The position numbers and the translations under genes were made by a program. A stretch of DNA of 64,000 nucleotides, taken from Desulfovibrio cuneatus DSM 11391. Its GTDB lineage: Bacteria > Desulfobacterota > Desulfovibrionia > Desulfovibrionales > Desulfovibrionaceae. The stretch covers positions 124,001 through 188,000 of the forward strand of contig NZ_AUCY01000004.1 of the NCBI RefSeq assembly GCF_000430005.1. Direction: 5' to 3'. Shown piece after piece: positions 3,324 to 19,532 of the stretch. A model generated the notes under the pieces. The model was not told the origin of the DNA, made no database searches, and worked only from the letters and a program-made list of their open reading frames with translations. The first letter of the stretch is position 1. Each line of letters starts with the position of its first letter.

Positions 3324-4676
3324 TTATAATTGAAAGGGCCAGATATACGGCACAAGCACCATGCACAACACAAGGGCGACAACCTGAAGAGCCCAACCAT
3401 ACTTGACATAGTCAAAGAACGTATAGTTACCGGGGCGCAGCACCAGCGTGTTGGAAGGTGTGGCAATGGGGGTAAGGAAGCAGGCGGAAGCTGAAGCACA
3501 CACCCCCATGACGAAAGGAAGTGGGCTGTACCCCAAGTTCAGCGTCAGGGGAATAATCAGGGGCACCATAATGGCGGTTGTGGCCGTGTTGGACATAACG
3601 TTGGTAATAAGCCCGGTTATAATACAAGCAATGGCCAAAATAGCATATGGGTCAGAAACGTACTGGGTAATGGTGTTGGCAAGTAAAAGCGCTGCGCCGG
3701 ATTTTTCCATGGCAAAACTCATGGATAACATCCCGGCAAACAGGTAAATGGTGGTCCAGTCCACTCCCTTAAAGGCATTTTCAACACTTATGCAGCGGGT
3801 TATAATGCACAGCATGGCCCCAAGCATGGCAGCAGAAGTCAGGGGAATAAGCCCGGTGGCCATGGAAATGATCACCATAAAAAAGATGGCCCCGGCAATA
3901 ACGGTATACTTGGTAAAGGGGACATCCTCTTCTTCCACATGGAGTGCTGTGTCTGGCCGGTCGCCGGGCAAGAGCCACTTGGAAAACACGGTGTACATTA
4001 TAATGGTAATAATAAGCAGGGGAACCCCGTAATAACCAAATTCAAAAAAACCAAAAACCCGCGTTCCAGGAGCCATTTTGGCAATAAGGGAATTGGCGAC
4101 CATGTTTGGGGCCGTGCCCACAAGTGAAATACACCCCCCTACGGAAGCTGCGTAGGCTGTGGGCAATAATATGCGCGACGGGGAAAGGTGGGCCCTGCGA
4201 GCAATGGAAATAAGCATGGGCAGGGTAATGGCAGTTACCCCTGCATTGTTCAAAAAGGCAGACATAATACCGATCATGGCAATAGAAACAATAATAATTG
4301 AGTGCTGGCTTGTTCCGGCTTTACGAATAACCCAGGCCGCAGAACGCTGGGCAAACCCCGTGGCAAAGGTGGCTTCACCCAGCATAAACAACCCTACAAT
4401 AGTAAGAATGCTGGTGTCGCCAAAGCTGATCCAGGCATCTTTCACCGATATAACACCAAATGTGCTTAACGCACAGGGAACCAGTACCGCAGTAACAGCA
4501 AGGGGAATGGCTTCTGTAAAAAACAACAGGGCAGCCACCAGCAGAATACCCAATGTCAGGTAAATGTGGACCATATTGGGGCCAGCAACGGCTGGTACCC
4601 CGCTGGCAGCCTGGGCAGTAAGGGAAAATACAACAGCACTCAGCAATATACCAAATAAGAGTCCTATGTCCTTCAT
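3324..4676 (-). CDS. DASS/SLC13-family sodium:anion symporter
   Basis: An inner-membrane carrier of about 450 residues with roughly 11-12 hydrophobic helices. The two family signatures are present: a GTAPNMVAN loop in the first half and an SNTATTA motif in the second, the pair that builds the sodium and anion sites of SLC13/DASS proteins. Members carry C4-dicarboxylates, sulfate or other dianions; substrate cannot be read from sequence. I choose the second Met (4676) because GGAGCAGGTT precedes it. The next upstream minus-strand gene is a TauE/SafE permease, so a shared role in organic-acid or sulfonate/sulfite traffic is an inference. Confidence 0.88.
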   Translation of the reverse strand: MKDIGLLFGILLSAVVFSLTAQAASGVPAVAGPNMVHIYLTLGILLVAALLFFTEAIPLAVTAVLVPCALSTFGVISVKDAWISFGDTSILTIVGLFMLGEATFATGFAQRSAAWVIRKAGTSQHSIIIVSIAMIGIMSAFLNNAGVTAITLPMLISIARRAHLSPSRILLPTAYAASVGGCISLVGTAPNMVANSLIAKMAPGTRVFGFFEFGYYGVPLLIITIIMYTVFSKWLLPGDRPDTALHVEEEDVPFTKYTVIAGAIFFMVIISMATGLIPLTSAAMLGAMLCIITRCISVENAFKGVDWTTIYLFAGMLSMSFAMEKSGAALLLANTITQYVSDPYAILAIACIITGLITNVMSNTATTAIMVPLIIPLTLNLGYSPLPFVMGVCASASACFLTPIATPSNTLVLRPGNYTFFDYVKYGWALQVVALVLCMVLVPYIWPFQL

Positions 4677-4846
4677 AACCTGCTCCATACGTTAAGGGCA
4701 AATAATATTCATTGCCCGTGGTAAGCCCAAGGGAGCTAAGCAGCATTTACCCATAGGCATTGAAAAGCCCATGATACGTTCAGGAAAATACCTCCTTGTT
4801 AGTGTCTGTTTTACGTATTTTTTGTTAACAAAATAGTAAGGAAACG

Positions 4847-5605
4847 CTAAAAACACATATTGAGTGAAACAATAAAGATGGTCGCCAAAACAATTTTCCT
4901 GAACAGCACGCTGTTCAGTTTTTTATTGGCCAGGTTGCCAAGGTAGCTACCAAGAAAAACAAACGGAATGGCTGGCAACACGCTAAACAAAGAGCTTGGC
5001 GTAAGCATGCCTATATACAAATAAGCAATTGTTTTATATGTATTGGTTATAAAGAATAAAAGAACGATAGTGCCCACAAAAACGCGCTTATCCAAATTTC
5101 TGGTTACCAGATACAATGACCACACCAACCCCCCGGCATGTGCCAAAACAGTAGCCACACCACCCATGGCACCATAAATATAAATTTGCTTGTTCGCATA
5201 CTTTGTATTGATGACAGAAGATATTTTTTTAATAAATACAATAGGTGGCAAGGAAGGCCACAGCATACCCACAGAATAGAGCATGCCAAAAATACCCACC
5301 CCAATGCGAAAGGCCTTGCCCGGAATAATAGGCAGCAATATGGTGCCTATCAGTAAGCCTGGCAAGGCAGAAAGTAAAATACGCATCAGCTCCGGCGTGC
5401 TTGTCCACTGCTTCCAGTAATACCGCATTCCTATTACATCTGAAGCCAGCATAAGCGGGGCCCCAAGCCCCAAAGCAACCTTGGCCGGGAATGCCAAAGA
5501 AAGTGTGGGCAAAAGAAAAATACCCGAACCAACCCCCACGCCATTTTTAATAATACCTGAACATAACCCCGCAATGGCAATAATACATACTTCTGTAACA
5601 TTCAT
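4847..5605 (-). CDS. TauE/SafE-family permease
   Basis: A 252-residue membrane protein with seven to eight hydrophobic helices and the family pattern SGIIKNGVGVGSGIFLLPTLSLAF near the N-terminus, repeated more weakly in the second half. TauE/SafE proteins are proposed exporters of sulfite, sulfoacetate or other sulfur anions. The longer frame begins at 5683, but 5605 is better because GAGGG lies seven bases upstream and the protein then begins with the first helix. A possible -35/-10 pair (TTGAAA, 18 bp, TTTAAT) lies upstream on the minus strand. It lies near the TRAP/YihU-like genes, which fits sulfonate metabolism. Confidence 0.85.
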   Translation of the reverse strand: MNVTEVCIIAIAGLCSGIIKNGVGVGSGIFLLPTLSLAFPAKVALGLGAPLMLASDVIGMRYYWKQWTSTPELMRILLSALPGLLIGTILLPIIPGKAFRIGVGIFGMLYSVGMLWPSLPPIVFIKKISSVINTKYANKQIYIYGAMGGVATVLAHAGGLVWSLYLVTRNLDKRVFVGTIVLLFFITNTYKTIAYLYIGMLTPSSLFSVLPAIPFVFLGSYLGNLANKKLNSVLFRKIVLATIFIVSLNMCF

Positions 5606-5738
5606 ACGACCCTCACTTAGTACATAACGACACAGGGTTATTCCATACGCCCGATGCTCCGAAAGAAACAGTGCATACTGCATGATTAAAACGTGTGGTC
5701 ATATTCTATTTCAAGGGAAATTCTCCGATTATATCTGG

Positions 5739-5845
5739 AGAACCGCAAACTGCCGCACAGCCGCCGTACCCTTCCAAAGCCTTCGGTTTTGGTCGTCGGC
5801 TCGTAAAAACTCCGTAGTAATACCACTGCAGTAAAGCTATGCCAG
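5739..5845. repeat. Family C palindromic intergenic repeat
   Basis: A hairpin-rich stretch with GCCGCACAGCCGCC, CCAAAGCCTTCGGTTTTGG and a TAATACCA edge. The same block order occurs at 27050-27168, and related TAATACCA/GGAGC..GGCGAC blocks occur at 21114-21272 and 53293-53395. No coding potential is seen. Confidence 0.55.
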
Positions 5846-5961
5846 CAACAATTATGCCAAAGTATATTTCAAAATATACAACAACTTATGCCAATTACTC
5901 TTTGTATTTTTCCATAGTGCCCATATGTTGTTCAGTCTATGCCCATTAATCGTCCATTGCA

Positions 5962-6061: not shown

Positions 6062-6077
6062 TGGCACAGTAGTTGCT
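6062..6077 (+). promoter_or_regulatory. Sigma-54 (-24/-12) promoter of the TRAP operon
   Basis: TGGCACAGTAGTTGCT agrees at all key positions with the sigma-54 consensus TGGCAC-N5-TTGCW; GG (6063-6064) and GC (6075-6076) are exactly 12 bp apart. Transcription would start near 6088, leaving a leader of about 515 bases before dctP. rpoN and a bEBP gene are both in this window. Confidence 0.75.
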
Positions 6078-6604: not shown

Positions 6605-7606
6605 ATGAAGCGTTTATTGTTTTTTGCTCTTGCCTCAGTGTTGTTTATGTCCCCTTCTTTGTATTGTGGCGCCGCAACGTATAAAAAAATGACTATCCGT
6701 GCAGCAACTGCTAACCCTGAAGGGAGCTTGCACGCGACAGCTATCAACAAATTTAAGGAAATTGTTGAGAGAGAATCGGGTGGAGTCATCAAAGTACAAA
6801 CGTTTTATGGTGGTTCCATGGGCGATGAACAAGCCAACGTAAAGCAGTTGCGCGACGGAGAAATACAATTGGCTGTGCTTGCCGGTGGCAACCTGACACC
6901 ATTTGCCCCAAGGGCGGGTGCGTTCATTTTGCCTTACATTTTTCCCCATGAAGAAGACGCAAAAAAATTGTTCATGAATACAGAATATATGCAAAAATCT
7001 GCTGATGAAATTGCCAAGCAAAGCCGCACACGTCCTTTGTCGTGGCTGCTTGGTGGCTATAGGCACTTAACCAATTCCAAACGCCCCATCACCAAGATGG
7101 AAGACCTGCAAGGCTTAAAAATTAGAGTTCCCGTTGTAGAATTGCAGATTGAATCTTTCCACTCCTGGGGGGTGAACCCGCACCCTCTTGCATGGTCTGA
7201 AACCTTCAACGCGTTGCAGCAAGGCGTGGCAGACGGGCAGGAAACCCCTTATTCCGTTATTCGCGACCAAAAATTTTGGGAAGTACAAAAGTACATTACC
7301 CCCCTTCACTACCAGCTCTTTATAGCCCCTATGCTTGTGTCTGAAACATGGTACCAAAGGCTTGACCCAGACACAAAGGCGCTGGTGGATAAAGCCGCCA
7401 TGGACACTGCTGCATATGAATGGAAGTGGATGGAAGAAGAAGATGCCCGTGCGCTTAACCAATGCCTTGAAAAAGGCATGATCGTAACAGAACTGACAGA
7501 CGAGCCCAAGTGGGTAGAAGCCGCCCGTGGTATATGGCCCAAGTTTTATGACAAAGTTGGCGGGAAGCCGGCTGTGGATGAGATATTGGCCATTATAGCC
7601 AAGTAA
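6605..7606 (+). CDS. dctP: TRAP transporter substrate-binding protein DctP
   Basis: A periplasmic solute receptor of 333 residues with a Sec signal peptide (KRLLFFALASVLFMSPSLYCGAA, in two parts a basic start and hydrophobic core) and the DctP fold. The conserved arginine that usually salt-bridges the substrate acid group is in LQGLKIRVP, and the family GQETPYSVI region is present. It delivers substrate to the DctQM permease encoded downstream. Ligand is unknown: the usual ligands are C4-dicarboxylates, but sulfonates and other acids are also carried, and the YihU-like gene nearby makes a sulfonate plausible. GGAGA lies ahead of the ATG. Confidence 0.93.
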   Translation: MKRLLFFALASVLFMSPSLYCGAATYKKMTIRAATANPEGSLHATAINKFKEIVERESGGVIKVQTFYGGSMGDEQANVKQLRDGEIQLAVLAGGNLTPFAPRAGAFILPYIFPHEEDAKKLFMNTEYMQKSADEIAKQSRTRPLSWLLGGYRHLTNSKRPITKMEDLQGLKIRVPVVELQIESFHSWGVNPHPLAWSETFNALQQGVADGQETPYSVIRDQKFWEVQKYITPLHYQLFIAPMLVSETWYQRLDPDTKALVDKAAMDTAAYEWKWMEEEDARALNQCLEKGMIVTELTDEPKWVEAARGIWPKFYDKVGGKPAVDEILAIIAK

Positions 7607-7712
7607 TGTTTTGAAACTATGTCGCCGTGAACGGCTTGATACAAGCTTTTCACGGTGACACCTTCTTAACGATATTGCTTTGCTATACAATCCAGAGCGC
7701 TGGGGAGGTTTT

Positions 7713-8219
7713 ATGTTTCTACTCAAGAGCATTTATCATAATTTTGAGGAATACGTCTGCACAATTTTTGTAAGCTGCATGATTATTTGCCTTGGCTTGC
7801 AGGTAGCCATGCGTATAATTTCTGGCGCTTCTATTGGATGGTCGGAAGAACTTTCACGATATTGTTTTTTGTGGACTGTATACATTGGGGCAGCTTTGGC
7901 GGCCAAACGCAATGCTCATGTGCGTATTACCGCCCAATTTTCCCTCCTCCCGTTAGGGGGAAGGCTCTTCTTCCGCATTTTTGCAGACTGTGTATGGATT
8001 GCTTTTAACCTGTATCTTGCCTTCAATTGCATTAAAACCATTCAAAATGGCCTGCTATTTCCTGAAATTTCTCCCACCCTGGGTATTGTCAAGTCTTGGG
8101 TTGAAATGGTTATCCCCTTTGGCTTTATACTTATGAGCTGGCGCATTCTCGAGCAATACTACATCCACTGGACCAAAGGCTCACTGGCATCATTGGTCAA
8201 TTACGAGGAGGGAATGTAA
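7713..8219 (+). CDS. dctQ: TRAP transporter small permease DctQ
   Basis: A 168-residue membrane protein with four hydrophobic helices and the DctQ signature WSEELSRYCFLWTVYIGAAL. It forms the permease with DctM. The start at 7713 is preceded by GGGGAGG; the longer frame from 7680 lacks this. The TAA overlaps the ATG of dctM (TAATG), so the two subunits are translationally coupled. A gap of about 105 bases after dctP holds a hairpin (GTCGCCGTGAACGG ... TTTTCACGGTGAC) which may lower permease expression relative to the binding protein. Confidence 0.9.
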   Translation: MFLLKSIYHNFEEYVCTIFVSCMIICLGLQVAMRIISGASIGWSEELSRYCFLWTVYIGAALAAKRNAHVRITAQFSLLPLGGRLFFRIFADCVWIAFNLYLAFNCIKTIQNGLLFPEISPTLGIVKSWVEMVIPFGFILMSWRILEQYYIHWTKGSLASLVNYEEGM

Positions 8220-9517
8220 TGAGCCCACTTGAAATTGCCCTCCTTTGCATGTTCCTCATGTTTTTATTGGGTTTGCCCATTTTTGCAGCCCTTGCCATTG
8301 CTGCCGCCACTACCCTTATTGCAGGCGATATTTTGCCCTTGACCATTATGCACAATTCGCTTTTTGACGGGCTCAACATTTTCCCGCTGCTTGCCATACC
8401 TTGTTTTGTGGTTGCAGGCACGCTTATGGAATATGGCAACATTACAAACCAAATTATTGATGTTGTAAAACAACTTGTAGGCCGTACTTACGGGGGCCTT
8501 GGTATAACAACAATTTTGGCATGTACTTTTTTCGCTGCCATTTCAGGTTCTGGCCCAGGCACCGTGGCAGCCGTAGGAACTGTGTTGATTCCTGCCATGC
8601 TCCGCAATGGGTATTCCAAAGAATATGCCGCATCGGTAGCCAGTTCAGGGGGCACAATAGGTATTTTAATTCCGCCTTCTAACCCCATGATTATTTATGC
8701 CATATTGGGCAACCTTTCTGTTACCGCCATGTTTACAGCAGGCTTCATTCCCGGTTTTTTGGTAGCATTTATCATGATCTCTACCGCATGGCTTTTAGCC
8801 AAGAAAAACGGCTTTCAGGGTGACGTTGATGCCCCGCCTTTTCAGTTGAGATCACTCTTGGTATCTTGCCGCAAAGGTTTTTTTGCCCTGGCAACCCCGT
8901 TTATTATTCTCGGTTCCATTTATTCCGGTTTTGCCACACCCGTGGAAGCCTCTGTGGTGGCAATTGCATGGTCACTACTTGTTGGTTGCCTTGTGAACAG
9001 GGCGCTTAAATGGAATCACATTTATAAAGCGCTCGTTGAAGGAACCATGGTATGCGGTGGCGTGTTACTCATTGTGGGAACCTCTACCCTTTTTGGCAAG
9101 ATTCTTACCTACGAAGAAGCACCCCAACGCCTTACTGCCATGGTTATGGGTATTTCAAAAGATCCTACCATTGTGCTGTTCATGATTATTGCTGTTTTGT
9201 ACGTTCTTGGCATGTTCATGGAAACGCTCTCAACCATCATCATACTTGTACCGGTGCTTTTGCCAATGATTTTGGAGCTGGGCATAGACCCAATACATTT
9301 TGGGATTATTCTGGTGGTTACCAACAACGTTGCCATGCTCACGCCGCCACTAGGGGTAAACCTCTTCGTGGCGTCACGTATTGCAAGCCTTTCAGTGGAA
9401 AAACTGTCTCTTGCTGTTATCCCGTATTTAATTGCGTTGACGTTTGCCATTATTATACTCACATTAATACCTGAGTTGAGTACTTGGCTGCCCTATACTC
9501 TGGGTTACGGTAAATAA
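8219..9517 (+). CDS. dctM: TRAP transporter large permease DctM
   Basis: A 432-residue membrane protein with about 12 helices, the sodium-driven translocation subunit of the TRAP system. Family motifs seen include ISGSGPGTVAAVGTVLIPAM near residues 115-135, SGGTIGILIPPSNPMIIY near 145-160, and the C-terminal VTNNVAMLTPPLGVNLFVAS. Length and motifs are normal. It closes the dctPQM operon; a long inverted repeat (9566-9615) follows. Confidence 0.95.
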   Translation: MSPLEIALLCMFLMFLLGLPIFAALAIAAATTLIAGDILPLTIMHNSLFDGLNIFPLLAIPCFVVAGTLMEYGNITNQIIDVVKQLVGRTYGGLGITTILACTFFAAISGSGPGTVAAVGTVLIPAMLRNGYSKEYAASVASSGGTIGILIPPSNPMIIYAILGNLSVTAMFTAGFIPGFLVAFIMISTAWLLAKKNGFQGDVDAPPFQLRSLLVSCRKGFFALATPFIILGSIYSGFATPVEASVVAIAWSLLVGCLVNRALKWNHIYKALVEGTMVCGGVLLIVGTSTLFGKILTYEEAPQRLTAMVMGISKDPTIVLFMIIAVLYVLGMFMETLSTIIILVPVLLPMILELGIDPIHFGIILVVTNNVAMLTPPLGVNLFVASRIASLSVEKLSLAVIPYLIALTFAIIILTLIPELSTWLPYTLGYGK

Positions 9518-9929: not shown

Positions 9930-10808
9930 ATGCATGTAGGTTTTATCGGGCTTGGAATGATGGGCGGAGGCATGTCCAGCAACCTGTTAAAGGCTGGTCA
10001 TACTGTTTCAGGGTTTGACCTTTCTCCTGCTTCCATGGAACGGCACGCCAAGGCAGGGGGTATTGTGGCGAAGTCTGCCAAGGAAGCGGTTAAAGACGCA
10101 GATGTTATTTTTACCATGCTGCCCAACGGGCCAGACGTGGAACACGTTCTGCTGGGGCCAGACGGCGTGGCAGCCCACATAAAACCGGGCGCTGTAATTG
10201 TGGATAGCAGCACCATTCTTCCCAAAGCAACAGACAGCATTGCCGCCCGCCTGAAGGCCATGGGTGTTGCCATGGTAGACGCTCCTATTGGGCGCACCTC
10301 AGAACACGCCTGGGCAGGCACCCTTATTTTTATGGTGGGTGGTGAAAAGGCTCACTTTGAAAAGGTGCTGCCCCTGCTTGAGGTAATGGGGGAAGTTACC
10401 TACCACTGCGGCCCTGTGGGTACAGGCATACGCACCAAAATCATCAACAACTACATGTCTATTGTGTTGAATGTACTCACAGCGGAAGCGCTGACGCTGT
10501 CTGAAAAATTTGCCCTGGACAGAGACACCCTCATCAAGGTGCTTATGGGCACCCCGGCTGGGCGTTCCCATTTAACAACCTCCTACCCGGCAAAAGTGTT
10601 CAAGAACGACGTAACAGCCACGTTCATGCTTGACCTGGCCGCCAAAGACCTGGGGCTGGCCATACAGGCTGGCGCAGCGGAAGGCGTACCCCTGGCAACA
10701 GGTGCCGCCGCCCAGCAAATATACAACATTGCCCAAAGCCACGGCCACGGCAAGGAAGACTGGACAGCCATGCTGGTGAACATGCGCGAACTGGCAGGTT
10801 TGAAATAA
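9930..10808 (+). CDS. YihU-like beta-hydroxyacid dehydrogenase (sulfolactaldehyde reductase homologue)
   Basis: A 292-residue NAD(P)-dependent dehydrogenase of the 3-hydroxyisobutyrate dehydrogenase superfamily. The Rossmann motif GFIGLGMMGGGM is at 4-15, the catalytic Lys is K170, and NNYMS is at 173-177. Where ordinary members have an SGG loop this protein has GRTS (121-124), as I recall E. coli YihU having; the whole sequence aligns well with YihU (MLPNG, GIRTKIINNYMSI, HLTTS, FMLDLA). YihU interconverts 3-sulfolactaldehyde and dihydroxypropanesulfonate, so that is the best guess; succinic or tartronate semialdehyde are alternatives. Start 9930 is chosen because TAAGGAG precedes it and the frame then opens at the Rossmann strand. 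Confidence 0.8.
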   Translation: MHVGFIGLGMMGGGMSSNLLKAGHTVSGFDLSPASMERHAKAGGIVAKSAKEAVKDADVIFTMLPNGPDVEHVLLGPDGVAAHIKPGAVIVDSSTILPKATDSIAARLKAMGVAMVDAPIGRTSEHAWAGTLIFMVGGEKAHFEKVLPLLEVMGEVTYHCGPVGTGIRTKIINNYMSIVLNVLTAEALTLSEKFALDRDTLIKVLMGTPAGRSHLTTSYPAKVFKNDVTATFMLDLAAKDLGLAIQAGAAEGVPLATGAAAQQIYNIAQSHGHGKEDWTAMLVNMRELAGLK

Positions 10809-10968: not shown

Positions 10969-12696
10969 ATGACACCAAAACATACAGTGGACTTACTCAT
11001 ACTTGGCATGGGTGCTGCGGCAGAGCTTGCTGCCATTTACGCCTATGATGCGAACCCAAAACTTAATATTCTTATTGCTACCAAAGCCCTGAAAGGCAAG
11101 GGCGGTTGCAGCCGCATGGTGCAGGGTGGGTTCAATGTGGTGCTTGACTCAAGCGACTCACATGAAAAACATTTTATGGATACCCTGAAAGGTGGCCAGT
11201 ACATAAACGACCAGGACCTGGCCCTGACCCTTGTGGAACAGGCCACCCCCACCGTGAAAGAACTGGAAACCATTAGCGGGTGTTTTTTCGACCGCCGCGA
11301 CGATGGCCACATCCACCAAAAAGCCTTTGCCGGGCAAAGCTTTGACCGCACAGTGCACAAGGGCGACCTGACCGGCATTGAAATTATCAGCCGCACCACA
11401 GAACAGGTGTTCAAGCGGCGCATACCGGTGCTGGAAGAAACCAGGGCAGTGGAACTGCTACTGGACGAAACAGGCACCGTGGTTACCGGGGCTTTGCTGT
11501 TTGAAATGCGTACCGGAAAATTCATCGTGGTAGAAGCGGCAGCCACATTGGTGGCCACTGGCGGTGGCCCCACTCAATACCGCTTCCATGCGCCTGGGCC
11601 GGAAAAATCGGCAGACGGCATTGCCATGCTCTACCGTGCAGGCGCTGTTATGCGCGACATGGAAATGATCCAGTTCCACCCCACCGGGCTCATTATACCC
11701 GGCAGCGTGGTGGCTGGTGCTTTGCTGGAAGAAGGCCTGCGCGGTGCAGGCGCCCACTTGTACAACGGCAAGGGCGAGCGCTACATGAAAACCTACGCAC
11801 CGGAAGTGGCGGAACGCGCCACCCGCGACGTGGTAAGCCGTTCTGCCTACCTGGAAATGATAGCTGGCCGTGCCTGCCCGGAAGGGGGCGTACACATTGA
11901 CGCCGCCCACCTGGGGGCCGACTTTGTACTGAAAAACTTCCCCGGCATGGCTGAACGCTGCGCCCAATTCAACTACGACCTTGCCAATGGCAGGGTGCCT
12001 GTTTCTCCTTCTGCCCACTTTTTCATGGGCGGCGCTGCTATTGATAAAGACTGCTACGCCTCCCTGGGCAAACTGTTTGTGGCAGGGGAAGACGCTGGCG
12101 GCGTGCACGGGGCCAACAGGCTTGGGGGCAACGGCATTTGTGAATCGTGCGTGTACGGAAGGCAGGCAGGCATTTCCATTGCCAAGTTCCTTGCCTCCAA
12201 AGAAAACCGCACCATCGTCAAAACAGCACCCAAAATGGCGGAACGCATGGCAGAACGCCTTGCTGCCCCCCTCACTGCCACAAGCGGCACATCCCCCCTG
12301 GAAAACCGCCGCGACATTCAGGAAACAAACTGGCTGCAAGTGGGTGTGGTGCGTAACCAGAAAGACCTGCAAAGCGCCCTGGATTCCTTTACTGGCATGA
12401 GTGAAAACGTTGCCAAGGCCAAGGTTTCCGGGTCACAAGCCTATAATATGATTTATAATGTGCACCTAGATACCCTGAACATGATTGATGTGTCCATTAT
12501 GGCAGCCACTTCCGCCCTGCAACGCGACGAAACCCGCGGGGCACACACCCGTAGTGATTTCCCGCAGCAACGCGACGATTACGGCCTGTTCAATACCTTT
12601 TTATGGCGCGGTGAAAGCAACCTGCCTGTTTTTGAAAAGCGAGAGGTGATTTTTAAGCACAAATCTCTGGAAACTTGCCAACAGTTCAAGAAGTAG
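10969..12696 (+). CDS. frdA: Fumarate reductase/succinate dehydrogenase flavoprotein subunit
   Basis: A 575-residue FAD flavoprotein that interconverts fumarate and succinate on the cytoplasmic face. The dinucleotide motif LGMGAAAELAA (12-22) is near the N-terminus. Catalytic signatures are FHPTG, EEGLRGAGAHLYN, SAHFFMGG and HGANRLGGN, so substrate residues are intact. The His that links FAD covalently in FrdA/SdhA (SHTxxxQGG) is replaced: here the loop reads GGCSRMVQGG, with Cys47 at the His position. FAD may therefore be non-covalent or Cys-linked; as recalled for E. coli FrdA, losing the His favours fumarate reduction. It heads a run of six genes with the anchor, SdhB-Rieske, cytochrome b/c and fumarase. 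Confidence 0.9.
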   Translation: MTPKHTVDLLILGMGAAAELAAIYAYDANPKLNILIATKALKGKGGCSRMVQGGFNVVLDSSDSHEKHFMDTLKGGQYINDQDLALTLVEQATPTVKELETISGCFFDRRDDGHIHQKAFAGQSFDRTVHKGDLTGIEIISRTTEQVFKRRIPVLEETRAVELLLDETGTVVTGALLFEMRTGKFIVVEAAATLVATGGGPTQYRFHAPGPEKSADGIAMLYRAGAVMRDMEMIQFHPTGLIIPGSVVAGALLEEGLRGAGAHLYNGKGERYMKTYAPEVAERATRDVVSRSAYLEMIAGRACPEGGVHIDAAHLGADFVLKNFPGMAERCAQFNYDLANGRVPVSPSAHFFMGGAAIDKDCYASLGKLFVAGEDAGGVHGANRLGGNGICESCVYGRQAGISIAKFLASKENRTIVKTAPKMAERMAERLAAPLTATSGTSPLENRRDIQETNWLQVGVVRNQKDLQSALDSFTGMSENVAKAKVSGSQAYNMIYNVHLDTLNMIDVSIMAATSALQRDETRGAHTRSDFPQQRDDYGLFNTFLWRGESNLPVFEKREVIFKHKSLETCQQFKK

Positions 12697-12737: not shown

Positions 12738-13076
12738 ATGAAAACACCCGAGATGGAAAGCAGAGAACCACTTCAGTGGGGTGAAATTGACCCATACCGC
12801 CGGGGGCGGGCTCATGTTGGCATGTGGGCCTGGCTGTTGCAGCGCATTAGCGCCGTGTTCATTTTGCTCTTTCTTGGCCTGCACCTGGCTTACACCTATA
12901 AGCCGTTCTTGCAGTTCATGCTCTTTCTTACCCTTATCTTCCACGCAGCTCTTGGCATTCGTGTCATCCTGCTGGACTGCAACCTGGTAAACATCAAGTA
13001 CCAGCGCTACCTCATTCCTTGGGTACTGGGCATTGGGCTGGCTATTATGGCTGTGGTCTGGTTCATCATTTACTAG
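12738..13076 (+). CDS. Short SdhC/SdhD-like membrane anchor
   Basis: A 112-residue protein with three hydrophobic helices (about 33-52, 57-78, 91-110). It carries the anchor motif LQRISAV (R36, S38) near the first helix, and FHAALGIRVILLD (62-80 region) with His69, the usual haem b ligand in SdhC/SdhD; His49 is a second candidate. Family anchors are a pair of three-helix proteins or one five-helix FrdC; only one three-helix anchor is found here. It might dimerise, or the cytochrome b encoded downstream may supply the missing half. Start ATG at 12738 follows GGAGA. Confidence 0.8.
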   Translation: MKTPEMESREPLQWGEIDPYRRGRAHVGMWAWLLQRISAVFILLFLGLHLAYTYKPFLQFMLFLTLIFHAALGIRVILLDCNLVNIKYQRYLIPWVLGIGLAIMAVVWFIIY

Positions 13077-13167: not shown

Positions 13168-14451
13168 ATGCAGTCCAAACAAACCTTGCGAAAGGTTAAA
13201 ATATATCGCTACGACCCGGAAAAAGGTGGGGAAGGGCAGTTCAGCACCTATGATCTGAACATTGAAAACCCTGCCATTACCACCATTCTGGATGTGCTCA
13301 TTCGCATTCAGAAAGAACAGGACCCTTCCATTTCCTTTCGCTATGCATGCCGGGTGAATATGTGTGGCTCGTGCGGCATGGTTATTAACGGCAGGGAAGG
13401 CCTTGCCTGCAAAACCAACGTAAGCCACCTGCCTGCGGGGCAGGACATTACCCTGCGCCCCCTGAACCACTTCCCCGTCATTAAAGACCTGGTTGTGGAC
13501 ATGGGGCCATTCTTCACCAAATATGAAGACGCCCTGCCCTTTTTTGAACCCAAAATGAAGCATGATGAGCCGTATATTATTAAGGCAGACGACCCAAAGC
13601 GGGTGGACATTGGCATGGCCACCGACTGTATTGCCTGCGGCTGCTGCGTTTCAAGCTGTACCATGGTGAATAACCATGAAGGGTATGCTGGCCCCGCAGC
13701 CCTGAACCGGGCCTTTACCCTGCTGGCAGACGAACGCGACGCGCTGTTCGTGCCTCGCCTTACCCGTGCCCTGGAGTCCTGCTACAATTGCCGCACAGAA
13801 TTTAACTGTACGGAAGTATGCCCAAAACAGATCAGCGGCACACGCTCCATCAAGTATATTCAACGCCTGGCAGTAACCCACCTGAAAGAATTGAAGCCAC
13901 TGGAGGCCCACCCGGCAGAAGAACTGCCCCCAAAACCACCCAAGGAAGAACCTGACACCCCCTGCTGCTGTAAGGCCGGGCACGCGGCAGACCCTTCCCG
14001 CCGGAGTTTTTTGAAAACGGCGGCAGGCATGGTGGGTATTGCCAGCTCTGTGGGTATTGCCGGGGTACTGGGTGTTGCGGCGGTTGCCCCCACACTGGCT
14101 TCCAACCCCAAGCAGTGGGTGCCCGCTGGAACGCTGAAAGATTTCCCCGTGGGCGGCATCAGCACCATCATGCTCAGCTATACCCGCACCCAGGGGTTCC
14201 ACAGCGCTGCCGTGAATGCACCCATTCTGGTACGCCGTGATTCGGAAACAGAATTCCTGTGCTTTAGCAGCAGTTGCCCCCACCTTGGGTGTTCTGTTGC
14301 CTGGGACCCCCTTTCAGCCCGTTTTAAGTGCGCCTGCCACGGCGGTGCTTTTGATAAAGATGGCAACGTGCTTGCCGGGCCGCCACCGCGCGGGCTGGAC
14401 CGCCTGCCCTGGAAAATTGAAGACGGTATTATCAAGGTGGAGGTGGTGTAA
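13168..14451 (+). CDS. Fused SdhB/FrdB iron-sulfur subunit and Tat-type Rieske protein
   Basis: Residues 1-245 are an SdhB/FrdB subunit: [2Fe-2S] ligands C61, C66, C69, C81; then C154-x2-C157-x2-C160-x3-C164 and C205-x2-C208-x5-C214-x3-C218-P for the [4Fe-4S]/[3Fe-4S] centres. A Pro-rich linker with a CCC triplet (266-268) follows. Residues 278-312 form a twin-arginine signal anchor (SRRSFLKTAAG plus a hydrophobic stretch). Residues 315-427 are a Rieske domain with C370-x-H372-LG-C375 and C388-x-C390-H391. There is no frameshift and no ATG/GTG start before the RR motif. The SdhB part should stay inside and the Rieske part be exported, tying complex II to the downstream cytochrome b. The last base of the stop overlaps the next ATG (TAATG). 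Confidence 0.92.
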   Translation: MQSKQTLRKVKIYRYDPEKGGEGQFSTYDLNIENPAITTILDVLIRIQKEQDPSISFRYACRVNMCGSCGMVINGREGLACKTNVSHLPAGQDITLRPLNHFPVIKDLVVDMGPFFTKYEDALPFFEPKMKHDEPYIIKADDPKRVDIGMATDCIACGCCVSSCTMVNNHEGYAGPAALNRAFTLLADERDALFVPRLTRALESCYNCRTEFNCTEVCPKQISGTRSIKYIQRLAVTHLKELKPLEAHPAEELPPKPPKEEPDTPCCCKAGHAADPSRRSFLKTAAGMVGIASSVGIAGVLGVAAVAPTLASNPKQWVPAGTLKDFPVGGISTIMLSYTRTQGFHSAAVNAPILVRRDSETEFLCFSSSCPHLGCSVAWDPLSARFKCACHGGAFDKDGNVLAGPPPRGLDRLPWKIEDGIIKVEVV

Positions 14452-15851
14452 TGAGCTTCAAAAAGAATATTGGCTGGGAAACCCATCTCAAGCCATTCCT
14501 CTACAAAAAACTGCCTGAAGGCACAGGTTGGAGCGCCATTCTTGGTACCCTGTGCGCCCTTACCTTTGGCATTCTTGTGCTCACAGGCATGGTGCTGGCG
14601 TTTTACTATGTTCCTTCACCAGACAAAGCCTGGCTTTCCGTGCAGTTCATTTCCAATGAAGTGCCCATGGGCAACATTGTGCGCGGGCTACACCACTGGG
14701 GTGCAGGGGCCATGGTGTTGCTGGTCTTCTGCCACCTTATGGTGACCTACCTGCACGGGGCTTACCTTGCCCCGCGCCAGGGCACATGGCTTACCGGGGC
14801 TTTTTTGTTCCTTATAGTACTGGGCCTTGGTTTTACGGGCTACCTGCTGCCCTGGGACATGAAGGCTTACTGGGCCACAGTGGTAGGTGCCAACATTCCC
14901 AGCCAGTACCCCCTGGTGGGCGGCTATATTTCCCGCTTTATTCTGGGGGGGGAAGGCATGTCGGGCTTTACCCTGACCCGCTTTTACTCCGTGCACACCC
15001 TGGTGTTGCCTGCCTGCCTGCTGCTGTTTGCAGCAATACACATTTACTTTATTCGCCTGCACAACCTTTCCGACCCACGTGAACGCCTTGCCGGGGAAAA
15101 ATTACCCCCCGAAACAGGCATTCCGTATCGCTTTTTCCCCGAGCACATGAGCCGCACCATGCTGGGCTTTGGGGTAGTTGTGGGGGCACTGTTCCTGCTG
15201 GCAGCGTTCATTCCTGCCCCGCTGGAAGAAAAAGCAGGCACCTTTATAGCAGACTACTTGCCCCGGCCTGAATGGTACTATATGTGGCTGTTCCAGTTGT
15301 TGACCTATTTTTCCGGCGCATGGGAAATGGCAGGCAGCCTGCTCCTTCCTGTGGGCGGGGTGGCCTTGCTGCTGCTGGTGCCCTTTATCAGCGAAAGCCG
15401 CATGAAAGGCATGGTCAACAGGCCCATTTCCATGGCCATTGGCACCACTTTTATTCTGTGTGTGGTGTTCCTTACGGTTATGGCTTACTCCGACGCAGCC
15501 CCCTACAATAAAACCGTTGTCATTCCCTCTACCCCGCTCACCAAAGAACAGCAGGCCGGGCTTGCCGTGTTTGTGGAGCGCGAATGCTCTTATTGCCACA
15601 ACATCATGGGCAAGGGTGGGCACCGCACTGGCCCGGACATGAGCAACATGGTGCGCAAAGGCCGCACGGCAGAATACCTTTCCAACTACATTAAAAAGCC
15701 TACCTCCATATTGGCTTCCAGCACCATGCCAGCCTACGAGCTAACGCCGCAGGAACTGGCTGACCTTTCCGCCTTTCTCCTCTCGCTGCATTTTACCAAG
15801 GGCGTTACTCCGGTGGAAGTTTCCACCGCCGATATCCTAAAGAAAAAATAG
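14451..15851 (+). CDS. Cytochrome b (b6 plus subunit IV type) fused to C-terminal cytochrome c
   Basis: A 466-residue membrane protein with about eight helices, the core of a quinol:cytochrome c oxidoreductase. Haem b ligands are H81/H95 (HHWGAGAMVLLVFCH) and H182/H197 with b6-type 14/15 spacing. The Qo-site motif PEWY is at 273-276. After the last helix (about 327-346) is a mono-haem c domain: CSYCH (C379, C382, H383) with TMPAY (Met426) as probable axial ligand. This replaces a separate cytochrome c1. Its gene overlaps the SdhB-Rieske gene by one base, so both are made together. The bc complex would pass quinol electrons to periplasmic c-type cytochromes. Confidence 0.92.
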   Translation: MSFKKNIGWETHLKPFLYKKLPEGTGWSAILGTLCALTFGILVLTGMVLAFYYVPSPDKAWLSVQFISNEVPMGNIVRGLHHWGAGAMVLLVFCHLMVTYLHGAYLAPRQGTWLTGAFLFLIVLGLGFTGYLLPWDMKAYWATVVGANIPSQYPLVGGYISRFILGGEGMSGFTLTRFYSVHTLVLPACLLLFAAIHIYFIRLHNLSDPRERLAGEKLPPETGIPYRFFPEHMSRTMLGFGVVVGALFLLAAFIPAPLEEKAGTFIADYLPRPEWYYMWLFQLLTYFSGAWEMAGSLLLPVGGVALLLLVPFISESRMKGMVNRPISMAIGTTFILCVVFLTVMAYSDAAPYNKTVVIPSTPLTKEQQAGLAVFVERECSYCHNIMGKGGHRTGPDMSNMVRKGRTAEYLSNYIKKPTSILASSTMPAYELTPQELADLSAFLLSLHFTKGVTPVEVSTADILKKK

Positions 15852-15885: not shown

Positions 15886-16767
15886 ATGAAAGAACTCGAT
15901 TATAGCATTGTGGAAGAAGCAGCCAAGCAGCTGTATATTAAAGCCCTGTGCGAACTGCCACCCGATGTGCGCATTGCCCTGAAAAACGCCTATGCCAAGG
16001 AAACAAACCCGGCGGCCCGCAGTGTGTTTGATGCCATATTCAAAGCCATAGACATTGCAGACACCAAAAAAACGCTGCTGTGCCAAGATACTGGCCTTCC
16101 CATTTACAAGGTAAAAATCGGGTCCAAATACAATTGGAATGGCGCTGCCATCAAAAAATGCCTGTCTGAAGGGGCCCGCCGGGCCACCCAGGAATTTCCC
16201 TTCCGCAGCAGTTCCACCCACACCATTACCCGCATCAACCCCCAAACATCCGTGGGCCCCGGCCTGCCCGTTATTTACTATGACTTTGCAGACGACGTGG
16301 ACACCTTGGATATTCTGATGGTTCCCAAGGGGTCTGGTTCGGAAAACATGAGCAAAATGCAAATGTTTTACCCGCAACACGGCATTAAAGCGGTGAAAAA
16401 GTTTATTCTGGATACGGTCATTGAAAGTGGTGCCAACCCCTGCCCCCCTGGCATTATTGGTGTTGGCCTTGGGGGTACTGCCGACCTGGTTATGAAGCTG
16501 GCCAAAGACGCCATTGTTCGCCCCGTGGGCCAACGCAACCCAGACCCCATGCTTGCGGAAATGGAAATAGAGCTGGAAGAAGCCATTAACGCCACAGGCC
16601 GTGGCCCCATGGGGCTTGGCGGCGACATTTCCTGCCTGGCGGTACATATTGAGGCGGCCTATACGCACATTACGCAAAACCCGGTGGCCGTGAACACCCA
16701 GTGCTGGCCTGCCCGCAGGGCACGCGCCATTATTACCCCCTCGGGCAACGTTACCTACGGGTATTAA
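15886..16767 (+). CDS. Class I fumarate hydratase alpha subunit
   Basis: A 293-residue N-terminal half of the two-subunit [4Fe-4S] fumarase/tartrate dehydratase family. The three cluster cysteines are C66 (LCQDTG), C186 (NPCPPGIIGVGLGG) and C273 (TQCWPARRA). It hydrates fumarate to malate together with the beta subunit encoded 10 bases downstream. Placement after frdA-type genes points to fumarase rather than tartrate dehydratase, though sequence alone cannot exclude the latter. AAGGAG precedes the ATG. Like other class I enzymes it should be oxygen-sensitive. Confidence 0.92.
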   Translation: MKELDYSIVEEAAKQLYIKALCELPPDVRIALKNAYAKETNPAARSVFDAIFKAIDIADTKKTLLCQDTGLPIYKVKIGSKYNWNGAAIKKCLSEGARRATQEFPFRSSSTHTITRINPQTSVGPGLPVIYYDFADDVDTLDILMVPKGSGSENMSKMQMFYPQHGIKAVKKFILDTVIESGANPCPPGIIGVGLGGTADLVMKLAKDAIVRPVGQRNPDPMLAEMEIELEEAINATGRGPMGLGGDISCLAVHIEAAYTHITQNPVAVNTQCWPARRARAIITPSGNVTYGY

Positions 16768-16777
16768 GGAGAACGCC

Positions 16778-17371
16778 ATGAGTAAAACGCACCACCTGAC
16801 GTCGCCTTTTTCCGAAGAGGTCATTCGTAGCCTCAATGCCGGGGATATTGTCTACTTTGACGGCCCCCTGTTTGGCATTCGCGACCTGACCCAGATTCAT
16901 ATATTCGACAAAGGCAACCCACCCCCAGTGGACCTTACGGGTATGCCCTGCATTCACACCGCCCCAAGCTTGCGCCGGGTGGGCGACAAATGGGAAAAAA
17001 TATGTGTGGGCACCACCACCAGCACCCGTATGGACCGATTTACCCCTGGGCTTATCGGCCAATACGGAGTGCGGGCCATTATTGGCAAGGGGGGGCTTTA
17101 CCAGGGCAGCCTGGATGCCATGCAAAAGTACGGGGCAGTATACCTTGCCATTGTGGGCGGGGCTGCCTCCCTTGAAACAGAACAGATTGAAGAAGTGGAA
17201 GCCGTATATTTTGAAGAATTGCACCCGGAAGCGTTGTACCGTTTTCGCGTAAAAAACTTTGGCCCCCTGACCGTGGCTATGGATAGCCACGGGCGCCACC
17301 TTTATGAAGAAGTGGGTGCCAAAATCAAGGAAAAGCTACCAGAAATATACAAAAAACTCGGTGTCATATAG
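16778..17371 (+). CDS. Class I fumarate hydratase beta subunit
   Basis: A 197-residue partner of the preceding subunit, matching the C-terminal half of FumA/FumB. It has the family motif GTTTSTRMD near residue 81 and IGKGGLYQG near 107. It begins with ATG after GGAGA. This ends the operon that runs from the YihU-like gene or from frdA. Malate made here could leave by a transporter or feed pyruvate formation; the direction (fumarate to malate or back) depends on growth mode. Confidence 0.92.
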   Translation: MSKTHHLTSPFSEEVIRSLNAGDIVYFDGPLFGIRDLTQIHIFDKGNPPPVDLTGMPCIHTAPSLRRVGDKWEKICVGTTTSTRMDRFTPGLIGQYGVRAIIGKGGLYQGSLDAMQKYGAVYLAIVGGAASLETEQIEEVEAVYFEELHPEALYRFRVKNFGPLTVAMDSHGRHLYEEVGAKIKEKLPEIYKKLGVI

Positions 17372-17846: not shown

Positions 17847-17903
17847 AAAAGAAGTGTTCTGCTCCTCCCTGACAGAGCCATGCATTACCGCTGGAGGAAA
17901 GAG

Positions 17904-19532
17904 ATGCGACACCTCTCTGATTCACTCTACCAGACATTACTGGAAATCAATAATATTCTGGTGCGCGAAGTAACACCCGAAGGGCTGTTCCGCTCCCTGG
18001 CAAAGGCATTGCAATCCATACTGCATTGCGACAGGTGCAGCCTGACCATTTATGAGCATGAAACAGACAGCCTTTCCTGGTTTGCCCGCTCCGAAGGCAT
18101 TCGCGTAACCCGCATGGACAGCGAAGAACAGGCGCCCATTCGCGGCCCTTTGGCACGCAGGGCCATTACCACACGTGAACCTGTTATCATTCCCCGGCTG
18201 AAAGAGTACGCTGAAGATGAAGGCATTCAATTAATGCTTGATGCCGGGCTGCGCTCTTCCATGGTATTTCCCCTGCTCAATCGCAACAAACCCATTGGGG
18301 CTCTCTCCATTTCCTTTGCCCGCAACCTGGATGAATGGTCTGAAGAGCTTCGTGTCTCTCTTGAAAAAATGTCCGGTCAGGTGGCATTGGCCGTGGCAAA
18401 CATGCTTATTCATGCCAAGCTGAACAAGCGCAATGAAGACCTGCATAAACAGGTGGGCACCCTGCTGAGCGGGGAAGACAGCCCGCAACACGCAGATTCA
18501 CGCTTCTTTTTCCAATGCTCCACCATGAATTCCCTTATGGGGCAAATTCGCCTGCTGGCCAAAAGCGATGCTTCTGTCCTTATTTGCGGCGAAACTGGAA
18601 CAGGCAAGGAATTTGTCGCCCGCTTTATTCATCGCTACAGCCCCCGCAAAACCTTCAATTTTGTCAAGGTGAACTGCCCGGCCCTTTCCCCCACCCTGTT
18701 TGAAAGCGAACTCTTCGGCCATGCCAAAGGGGCATTTACTGGTGCGGCCAGTGGCAGGGTAGGCCGTTTTGAACTGGCCGACAAAGGCAGTATTTTTCTG
18801 GATGAAATAGGGGATTTGGACATTATCCTTCAAGCCAAGCTTTTGCATGTACTACAAGACGCAAAGCTGGAACGGGTGGGGGAAAACCGCTCCATCAGCA
18901 TTAACGCCCGCTGTATTTCTGCCACCAATGCCGACCTGCACCACCTGATGCGCGACGGGCGCTTCCGGCGCGATCTTTTTTATCGGCTTGGGGTTACCAC
19001 AGTGCAAGTGCCCCCCCTGCGCGACAGGGAAGGCGAGCTCGCCCCCATGCTGGGGCACCTCATGCACATTCATGCAGGTGATATGACGTGTGCTCCTGCC
19101 ACCTTCCACCCGGAAGCCTTGCACATGCTGCAAGAATATCATTGGCCTGGCAATGTGCGCGAACTTTCAAACCTGGTGGCCCGGCTGCTTATTCTGCACC
19201 CTGGGGGAGAAATTGGACCAGACAAGGTACGCCCCCTGCTGGAACAAAGCAGTAGCCAGAACAGCCCGGAACACGCACAAGCCATAGGATATTACCACTC
19301 CAGCTATTGTGCACCAGCGCAGGACCACACTACTGTGGGCACCTCCACCACGGCACACCAAGGGCACAGCCTGAATTCTGCAGAAAAAAAACACATTGAA
19401 CGCATCCTTACCATAGTTAATGGCCGCATCAGCGGCAAATTGGGGGCGGCTAGCCTTTTATGTGTGCCCCGCTCCACCCTTCAGTACAAGCTGAAAAAAC
19501 ACGGCATTAACCCCAAACATTTTCAACGCTAA
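17904..19532 (+). CDS. Sigma-54-dependent activator with GAF sensor domain
   Basis: A 542-residue bacterial enhancer-binding protein. Residues 1-170 are a GAF domain, the likely sensor of a small ligand. The AAA+ domain has Walker A GETGTGKE (229-236), the sigma-54 contact loop GAFTGA (276-281) and Walker B FLDEIGD (298-304). The C-terminus has a Fis-type helix-turn-helix ([24 protein letters not shown], last 30 residues). Start 17904 is chosen for GGAGG seven bases upstream. It sits between the TRAP/frd island and the DUF401 permease, each of which has a -24/-12 promoter, so it is the natural candidate regulator. NorR and FhlA have a similar layout. Confidence 0.93.

Follow-up and report, generated by a model that had tools for sequence, protein, structure and literature searches.

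The present analysis concerns a stretch of 64,000 nucleotides from Desulfovibrio cuneatus DSM 11391 (contig NZ_AUCY01000004.1, positions 124,001 to 188,000 of the forward strand; hereafter the window), in which a single open reading frame (ORF) on the plus strand, from the ATG at 13168 to the TAA at 14451, encodes a protein of 427 residues and 46,576 Da that runs from a complete SdhB/FrdB domain through a linker and a membrane anchor with RR-x-F-L to an equally complete Rieske domain. Gene order and alignments demonstrate that this fusion shares an operon with predicted SdhA, three-helix SdhC and cytochrome b::c proteins, and that this set is co-inherited with a FumAB-type hydratase. The fusion could be the electron-transfer subunit of a covalent complex II–complex III enzyme that probably oxidises 3-sulfopropionate, a proposal for which we judge the evidence evenly balanced. 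Its parts are the following:

13168..13893, plus strand: SdhB/FrdB domain, residues 1-242, with the cysteine groups of the [2Fe-2S], [4Fe-4S] and [3Fe-4S] clusters (Pfam Fer2_3, Fer4_8 and Fer4_17; NCBIfam dhsB)
13894..13998, plus strand: Pro/Cys-rich linker, residues 243-277, of varying length among relatives
13999..14103, plus strand: twin-arginine signal anchor with RRSFLK at residues 278-283 (invariant RR; hydropathy scan)
14113..14448, plus strand: Rieske domain (Pfam Rieske, invariant columns, AlphaFold2 and Foldseek)

An earlier note, made from the letters of this DNA, had described one unbroken frame running from SdhB to Rieske, which was confirmed, and the residue numbers it gave for the SdhB cysteines (61 to 218), the twin-arginine anchor and the pairs C370/H372 and C388/H391 were all correct on recheck. 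The fusion alignment comprises 23 rows, namely the window and 22 further loci, one per genome, and alignment A1 comprises 22 rows. The SdhB domain scores 193.9 bits against NCBIfam dhsB, whose cut-off is 88, and the Pfam matches of the fusion (Fer2_3, E 4e-32; Fer4_8, E 1e-7; Rieske, E 1e-11) all pass the curated cut-offs. The SdhB cysteines at positions 61, 66, 69, 81, 154, 157, 160, 164, 205, 208, 214 and 218 are invariant in 22 of 22 rows, and the three predicted Fe-S cysteine groups that characterise complex II are all present. From the CPK motif to the RR pair the linker measures 41-89 residues over the 23 rows, after which R278 and R279 are invariant in 22/22 rows of A1. In the hydropathy scan a single strong hydrophobic segment was found, at 288-306, in agreement with the single membrane crossing proposed in the earlier note, together with a weak one at 146-166, inside the SdhB domain. 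Additionally, the Rieske ligands C370, H372, C388 and H391 and the disulfide pair C375/C390 are all six invariant in A1, and the predicted domain carries both the ligands and the disulfide cysteines of a Rieske/cytochrome b complex; residues 321-427, the Rieske part, gave AlphaFold2 block means of 74-94 and Foldseek matches to 8hn2, 9rk4 and 5cxm. Ser and Tyr near the Rieske cluster raise the redox potential in bc1 complexes. Since the motif here is CACHGGxF, with Gly (Gly393) and Phe (Phe395) at the bc1 Ser and Tyr positions in all 22 rows of A1, the cluster is predicted to be of the low-potential, menaquinone type, well below the bc1 range.

The fusion is not confined to the window. Scanning GTDB genomes with the whole fusion protein gave 25 loci. 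In 18 of them the match extends along the fusion (52-73% identity in the best segment), in one (L038; loci, genomes and contigs carry the prefixes L, G and C) it is cut off by the end of the contig, and in six it is confined to the SdhB half, at 32-42%. Altogether, the SdhB plus Rieske pair, which the earlier note had suggested seeking in other genomes, was found fused at 22 further loci from independent assemblies of several phyla, at 51-76% identity. Among the 288 genomes sampled from the family of the window, 12 match the fusion at E 1e-100 or better and the SdhA partner occurs in the same 12; with 13 carriers reached outside that sample, the carriers total 25. In one of the 12, G017, the fusion halves lie on two contigs, and the splits of both G017 and L038 coincide with contig ends. 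A stop or frameshift in the linker had been named in advance as a refutation, and no internal stop was observed in any of the 23 rows, all of which hold the RR anchor and the Rieske C-x-H...C-x-x-H ligand motif; the row of L035 loses its C-terminal end past the last ligand His, near a contig end. The same frame recurs in independent assemblies, and an artefact, misassembly or frameshift was ruled out on that ground as the source of the fusion. An internally started Rieske protein is also unlikely to be the rule, since the linker of two of the 23 rows (L057 and L060) offers no in-frame start codon and the start positions in the other rows vary from row to row; cleavage of the chain after translation is possible.

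Trees of the SdhB half and of the Rieske half were built separately, with 22 rows each. In both, the ten Desulfovibrionales rows group together (100/99 each), as do L030-L033 (99/98 and 100/98), and a larger eight-row group has 98/94 in the Rieske half and a weak 46/65 in the SdhB half. The deeper picture fits one fusion event followed by joint inheritance, with some apparent transfer between phyla. Inside the Desulfovibrionales ten, the window is placed with L057 by the SdhB half (97/91) and with L062, L064 and L066 by the Rieske half (88/88), and local exchange of the Rieske half among these rows is possible. The closest unfused SdhB relatives, at 41-42% identity, were observed in L040, L041 and L043, where the adjoining SdhA is 31-34% identical in the best segment. 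No Rieske match occurs in the available DNA of these three loci, of which L041 ends right after SdhB; a class II fumarase lies upstream in L040 and L043 (Pfam). This unfused set possibly belongs to another non-canonical succinate-type pathway.

The genes that flank the fusion supply the other components of the putative enzyme:

10969..12696, plus strand: SdhA-like flavoprotein, the catalytic subunit, with no histidine linking flavin adenine dinucleotide (FAD) (GKGGCSRM) and with EEG for TEG
12738..13076, plus strand: SdhC-like anchor of 112 residues and three helices (Pfam Sdh_cyt; invariant columns of alignment A2; AlphaFold2; profile match to 6lum)
14451..15851, plus strand: cytochrome b with seven predicted helices, fused to a C-terminal mono-haem c domain (H81/H95, H182/H197, PEWY, C379xxC382H383, M426)

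When SdhA was aligned with the FrdA of its own genome, the HPTG histidine, RDVVSR, H-x-x-MGG and NRLGGN were found conserved; the Arg and His among them are presumably catalytic residues, and the protein is a predicted FAD-binding SdhA with the active-site Arg/His of complex II. The His that carries FAD covalently in complex II is replaced, the motif reading GKGGC[ST]RMVQGG in 21/21 rows covering the site (RRSHSS in the own FrdA), and the substrate-site Thr is lacking, EEG being present in 22/22 rows (VTEG in the own FrdA). SdhA falls below the curated cut-off of all 25 NCBIfam models shown, of 30 matched (TfrA, 495.6 versus 718; sdhA_forward, 316.3 versus 727; fum_red_Fp, 285.1 versus 932.7), and its best PDB match is 7d6v_A. 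In L039 (2874-4586), from a metagenome-assembled genome, SdhA is split into frames of 465 and 84 residues, a pseudogene or an assembly error.

The SdhC ORF opens at the TTG at 12675 in the ORF list, and the relatives align from 12738. H49, H69, R36 and D80 are invariant in the 21 rows of alignment A2, and three helices were predicted with an AlphaFold2 mean of 80.9. By profile the protein matches 6lum_C (E 3e-12) and weakly 6lum_D (E 0.016), both His aligning with a His in each. Because both align to His of the 6lum SdhC and SdhD, an SdhC homodimer would provide four His to bind two b haems, one haem close to either face of the membrane. As regards the cytochrome b, the haem ligands H81, H95, H182 and H197 are invariant in 22/22 rows, and PEWY is present in 20 and PDWY in one of the 21 rows reaching that site, one of the 22 ending earlier; the four haem-b His and the PEWY of a Rieske/cytochrome b complex are all present in the predicted protein. 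CxYCH and the Met of the haem-c domain occur in all 19 rows reaching them. The number of predicted helices is seven, so the C-terminal haem-c domain would lie on the outer side. These features support, at the level of sequence, the covalent tie of a complex II module to the cytochrome b encoded next that had been put forward in the earlier note.

Several described systems resemble parts of this arrangement. Complex II with two b haems, as in Mycobacterium smegmatis (Sdh2, 6lum) and in Desulfovibrio gigas (quinol:fumarate reductase, 5xmj), likewise combines SdhA and SdhB with a membrane anchor. SdhC, with its two invariant His, is closest to 6lum_C by profile and by Foldseek rank, the latter not significant by E. 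However, one anchor gene of 112 residues is found here instead of SdhC plus SdhD, SdhB bears an exported Rieske domain, the operon runs on into cytochrome b::c, and the SdhA active site is altered. The class F complex II (mycobacterial Sdh1, 7d6v) also combines complex II with a Rieske-type cluster, which is found inside a six-helix membrane subunit (PMC10238741; this and the other papers cited by PMC number are represented here by excerpts). In contrast, the Rieske domain of the window is of the soluble type, stands behind a twin-arginine anchor and is fused to SdhB, and SdhC has three helices, which places the protein outside class F. The bc1 and b6f complexes share the Rieske ligands, the four haem-b His, PEWY, the one-helix Rieske anchor and a c-type haem domain, but in the present case a whole SdhB precedes the Rieske anchor, the c haem is at the C-terminus of cytochrome b, and the complex is tied to one dehydrogenase by fusion. 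Complex II is held beside complex III in the Perkinsus CII2CIII2CIV2 supercomplex (9fq7) and the Tetrahymena I/II/III/IV mega-complex (8gym), which are to our knowledge non-covalent. Those assemblies are eukaryotic, whereas here one polypeptide would span both complexes. Searches of open-access papers, with subscription papers and preprints lying outside their reach, brought up no description of an SdhB/Rieske or complex II/Rieske fusion, in line with the earlier note, whose author knew of no enzyme with such a layout; nor did they bring up one of the 3-sulfopropionate pathway genes.

The earlier note had assigned succinate or fumarate as substrate, an assignment that found no support here, since the gene content of the operon and of related loci speaks for a C3-sulfonate and SdhA deviates at the FAD-linking His and at TEG. 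The indications of a sulfonate are SuyAB, TauE/SafE, a gene resembling sulfolactaldehyde reductase, the SsuA-like ABC transporter of one relative, and dissimilatory sulfite reductase. In the window, the genes follow the order DctP-DctQ-DctM, a 3-hydroxyisobutyrate dehydrogenase family gene, SdhA, SdhC, SdhB::Rieske, cytochrome b::c, FumA, FumB and a GAF/sigma-54 activator, and from SdhA through FumB the intergenic gaps are below 100 bases or negative. The hydratase genes are:

15886..16767, plus strand: FumA/TtdA-type hydratase alpha, the proposed sulfoacrylate hydratase (Pfam Fumerase, E 1e-90)
16778..17371, plus strand: FumB/TtdB-type hydratase beta (Pfam, NCBIfam; kept in relatives)

Synteny was checked by direct search, and the relatives keep SdhA-SdhC(3-helix)-SdhB::Rieske-cytochrome b as far as their contigs reach. 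FumAB is likewise retained on contigs of sufficient length, preceding SdhA in L039, and in L026 (4353-5486), from a Sumerlaeota metagenome-assembled genome, a URO-D family gene was observed between cytochrome b::c and FumA. FumA is 67-90% identical in the relatives and 39% identical to the other FumA of the genome. A second, ordinary set is encoded on contig C1 (FrdA of 624 residues with RRSHSS and VTEG, FrdB and FumAB), 30-39% identical to that of the window. As the genome holds this separate FrdAB-FumAB, the window cluster is a paralogous, specialised set by comparison of the two, and an ordinary housekeeping Sdh was rejected as its identity.

A link to sulfonates is given by SuyAB: 12 of the 22 relatives encode both of its subunits at the locus of the fusion. 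SuyB was found in 12/12 carriers of the family sample and in 67 of all its 288 genomes (hypergeometric p = 1.1e-8, or 3e-4 by genus, with kinship ignored), and in 10/13 carriers outside it, one by a partial match. SuyB is 66% and SuyA 47% identical to the pair of Cupriavidus pinatubonensis, which adjoins annotated hpsN and hpsO. The SuyB clade is tight, the 13 plasmid records lying at 59.6-67% and the next UxaA-family protein among the matches listed at 39.8% (316 records matched), and by these identities the associated SuyB falls within the SuyB clade of sulfolactate sulfite-lyase. In the window genome, SuyAB is found on contig C26, together with a LarA-like racemase and another DctP/DctM pair that shares 63-80% identity with that of the window. 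This stretch (G000:C26, L056:6643-11460), in which the LarA-type lactate racemase is accompanied by a gene of the 3-hydroxyisobutyrate dehydrogenase family and by a TRAP set closely similar to that of the window, is probably a sulfolactate locus with its own racemase. The dsrA gene was above the cut-off in 19/25 carriers (G321 and G313 with one internal stop), while G152 and G154 hold fragments of it; of 14 control genomes, none passed. Additionally, an SsuA-like binding protein with ABC partners is encoded in L028, and ComC/SlcC-like genes, below their model cut-offs, in L028 and L035. As side observations, an RraA/aldolase-like gene follows SuyB at L058:14060-14917 and L060:15356-16033 (Pfam), two short SuyB-like fragments lie just downstream of an intact SuyB at L064:3623-3801, perhaps as the remnant of a tandem duplicate, and in G079 and G074 two complete SuyB stand close together on one contig.

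Succinate is probably not the substrate: two canonical features are missing from SdhA, a separate FrdAB-FumAB is encoded elsewhere in the genome, and SuyAB is associated with the cluster. 3-Sulfopropionate is succinate with one carboxylate replaced by a sulfonate. With SdhA-like, fumarase-like and SuyAB proteins in series, the pathway would be a sulfonate version of the conversion of succinate to fumarate and malate: judging from gene content, SdhA would oxidise 3-sulfopropionate to 3-sulfoacrylate and FumAB would hydrate this to 3-sulfolactate, which SuyAB, encoded in the same locus in relatives and on another contig here, would split into pyruvate and sulfite, the latter to be respired by DsrAB.

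The published SuyAB pathways of C. pinatubonensis JMP134, Desulfovibrio sp. DF1 and Bilophila wadsworthia share the SuyAB clade and the release of sulfite (PMC6278857, PMC8667426), and SuyAB activity on sulfolactate was shown for DF1, which carries a second suyAB pair (PMC6278857). In JMP134 and DF1, the excerpts derive sulfolactate from 2,3-dihydroxypropane-1-sulfonate (DHPS) by dehydrogenases, whereas here a pair like succinate dehydrogenase (SDH) and fumarase appears to feed it from 3-sulfopropionate. The latter, which arises in the breakdown of sulfoquinovose (PMC11489063, PMC12890257), serves Bilophila wadsworthia in respiration (PMC11489063). For the aerobe Roseovarius nubinhibens, the same excerpt of PMC11489063 gives the route from 3-sulfopropionate through sulfoacrylate to sulfolactate with a thesis as its source, and says of sulfite reducers that their use of it 'remains to be investigated'; the mechanism of Bilophila is called unclear in that of PMC12890257.

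As for the electrons, they would pass from the cytoplasmic FAD through the three Fe-S clusters of the SdhB domain to the two b haems of the SdhC homodimer, which would carry them across the membrane and reduce menaquinone near the outer face, where quinone reduction has been proposed to occur in two-haem complex II. The Rieske domain of the same chain would stand on that face, so that quinol could be handed straight to the neighbouring Qo site, from which one electron would go to Rieske and then to the haem-c domain and the other back via bL/bH to the quinone pool. Menaquinone-linked oxidation of such a substrate would be uphill and cost membrane potential, which the tethered Qo reaction would repay. 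By standard charge counts, what the first step costs is balanced by what the second gains, and the joint enzyme would thus be near electroneutral. The fusion would keep the two modules at 1:1 and pass scarce quinol directly.

Several observations weigh against this proposal. The AlphaFold2 model of the whole fusion is poor (score 61.5), good scores being confined to the Rieske domain and to portions of the N-terminal ferredoxin region, and the Foldseek ranking of SdhC that puts the SdhC chains of M. smegmatis Sdh2 first (probability 0.98-0.99) is not significant by E (0.07-0.14). The Glu for Thr in the substrate-site TEG motif of SdhA lacks an explanation, and FumA passes the NCBIfam fumarase cut-off (307.5 versus 276), so that plain fumarate is possible. 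SuyAB is not in the window nor in 10/22 relative loci, several of them short contigs; SuyB was not found in 3/13 carriers outside the family sample, of uncertain completeness; 55 family genomes have SuyB without the cluster; and the SuyA-size proteins match no Pfam model. DsrA was not found above the cut-off or as a strong fragment in 4/25 carriers (G315, G316, G318 and G319). B. wadsworthia is the sole organism shown to use 3-sulfopropionate; no Bilophila record is among the GTDB loci matching the fusion, and genus g49, with SarD and SuyB and perhaps Bilophila (unproven), is without the cluster, because of which a second route to 3-sulfopropionate use probably exists, the fused system being one of at least two. 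In three SuyAB neighbourhoods of two g49 genomes no match to the SdhA or FumAB of the window was found. One g49 genome, G206, nevertheless encodes at L107:1588-3318, about 6 kb from SuyB, another flavoprotein that belongs to the SDH/fumarate-reductase superfamily (FAD_binding_2 and Succ_DH_flav_C) and is possibly g49's own route to sulfolactate. Finally, COX1 and CCP_MauG were both not found in 6/14 carriers tested for both, a search that did not take in nitrite or other acceptors. The model is least certain about which way the electrons flow on balance and about what accepts them beyond the haem-c domain.

This last point bears on the alternative that survives best. A haem-copper oxidase was not found in 10/25 carrier genomes, among them the single-contig genome G094 and, with it, G031, G106 and G152, all at least 97% complete, and was therefore rejected as a general final acceptor; the CCP/MauG peroxidase (CCP_MauG) was likewise rejected as the common acceptor, being found in 6/14 carriers tested. 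Sulfite respiration needs electrons at or below menaquinol, and the donor lies near +30 mV. In such carriers the Rieske/cytochrome b module might run backwards, membrane potential driving substrate electrons via the b haems into menaquinone for DsrMKJOP, with cytochrome c as no net acceptor. Against this, a di-haem SdhC alone could suffice, and the full set of PEWY, Rieske and haem c suggests that the high-potential branch is used. We hold this reversal to be rather unlikely overall, and yet a serious alternative in the carriers with no oxidase or peroxidase match.

Unlikely, in our judgement, is a covalent succinate:quinone:cytochrome c oxidoreductase in which FumAB is a plain fumarase and SuyAB serves another purpose. 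It would agree with the Arg/His that SdhA keeps in alignment with ordinary FrdA, with the fumarase score of FumA and with the dicarboxylate-type transporters nearby (SDF in L063, CitMHS in L061 and in the window), but it must contend with the ordinary FrdAB-FumAB already in the genome, with the SuyAB association and with an SdhA that fails the cut-offs of the 25 models shown and, in every row that covers the sites, reads EEG for TEG and is without the FAD-linking His.

The pathway could also run in reverse, from sulfolactate through sulfoacrylate to 3-sulfopropionate with menaquinol electrons, as a sink like that of malate/fumarate respiration. Escherichia coli FrdA mutants in the His keep fumarate reduction and lose succinate oxidation, and the absence of the covalent-FAD His from SdhA would suit such a direction. 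The nearest NCBIfam model of SdhA, its cut-off unreached, is TfrA, a fumarate reductase, dsrA occurs in most carriers tested, and a relative of TauE, the probable 3-sulfopropionate exporter of E. gilvus in the excerpt of PMC11489063, is encoded in the window. On the other hand, the Rieske/Qo module would be unneeded and would draw quinol electrons to a higher-potential periplasmic carrier, and SuyAB beside the cluster fits sulfolactate use as a sulfite donor, which makes the sink, to our mind, quite improbable. Most doubtful of all is another saturated acid with a fumarate-like product, such as methylsuccinate/mesaconate or a tartrate-related acid: the Fe-S hydratases of the family act also on tartrate according to model descriptions, and an RraA-like gene follows SuyB in L058 and L060, but SuyAB, TauE/SafE and the ComC/SlcC-like genes of L028 and L035 (below cut-off) are sulfonate-type, and no recurring gene of CoA or C5 chemistry was noticed in the loci read, no dedicated search being made.

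The surroundings of the cluster in the window are as follows:

3324..4688, minus strand: CitMHS-type anion transporter, adjoining TauE and divergent from the operon
4847..5683, minus strand: TauE/SafE-family anion exporter (Pfam TauE, E 4e-30), divergent from the operon
6062..6077, plus strand: sigma-54 (-24/-12) consensus site ahead of the TRAP genes, the sole zero-mismatch site in the 64-kb window
6605..9517, plus strand: TRAP transporter, DctP 6605-7606, DctQ 7680-8219 and DctM 8219-9517 (Pfam)
9930..10808, plus strand: 3-hydroxyisobutyrate dehydrogenase family gene, its nearest NCBIfam model being sulfolactaldehyde 3-reductase (323 bits, below the cut-off of 348)
17880..19532, plus strand: GAF/sigma-54 activator (Pfam)

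The TRAP transporter is the probable importer of the substrate. Activators of the sigma-54 type, 35-63% identical in the best segment, occur in 14/22 homologous loci, and the site at 6062..6077 may be functional. Counting every site with two mismatches or fewer, the window holds as many as chance predicts; a one-mismatch site at 5844-5859 on the minus strand faces the divergent TauE and CitMHS genes. The window TauE is 57% identical to the copy beside the cluster in L061, and TauE relatives are encoded in 8/22 homologous loci; a CitMHS relative precedes the cluster in L061 (Pfam) and, on sequence alone, also in L058 and L060. Elsewhere in the same genome (G000:C34 and G000:C35; L070 and L079), two glycyl-radical enzymes of the choline trimethylamine-lyase type were observed, which fits a gut habitat.

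Complex II is usually absent from respiratory supercomplexes or loosely held in them (PMC10238741). One polypeptide locking it to a cytochrome b complex would make both quinone channelling and the payment for an uphill succinate-type oxidation testable on one gene. In addition, the operon provides a concrete gene list for a published question, namely how 3-sulfopropionate is converted to sulfite and H2S in sulfite-reducing bacteria; the sulfonate concerned derives from a plant sugar, and the genes for its anaerobic breakdown appear to be still unknown. In its widest form, which we advance tentatively and with slightly more doubt than belief, the proposal is that sulfite-reducing bacteria of several phyla possess a fused complex II-III for the quinone-channelled, near-electroneutral oxidation of 3-sulfopropionate; if true, it would supply the missing desulfonation route of anaerobes, from 3-sulfopropionate through sulfoacrylate and sulfolactate to sulfite and H2S.

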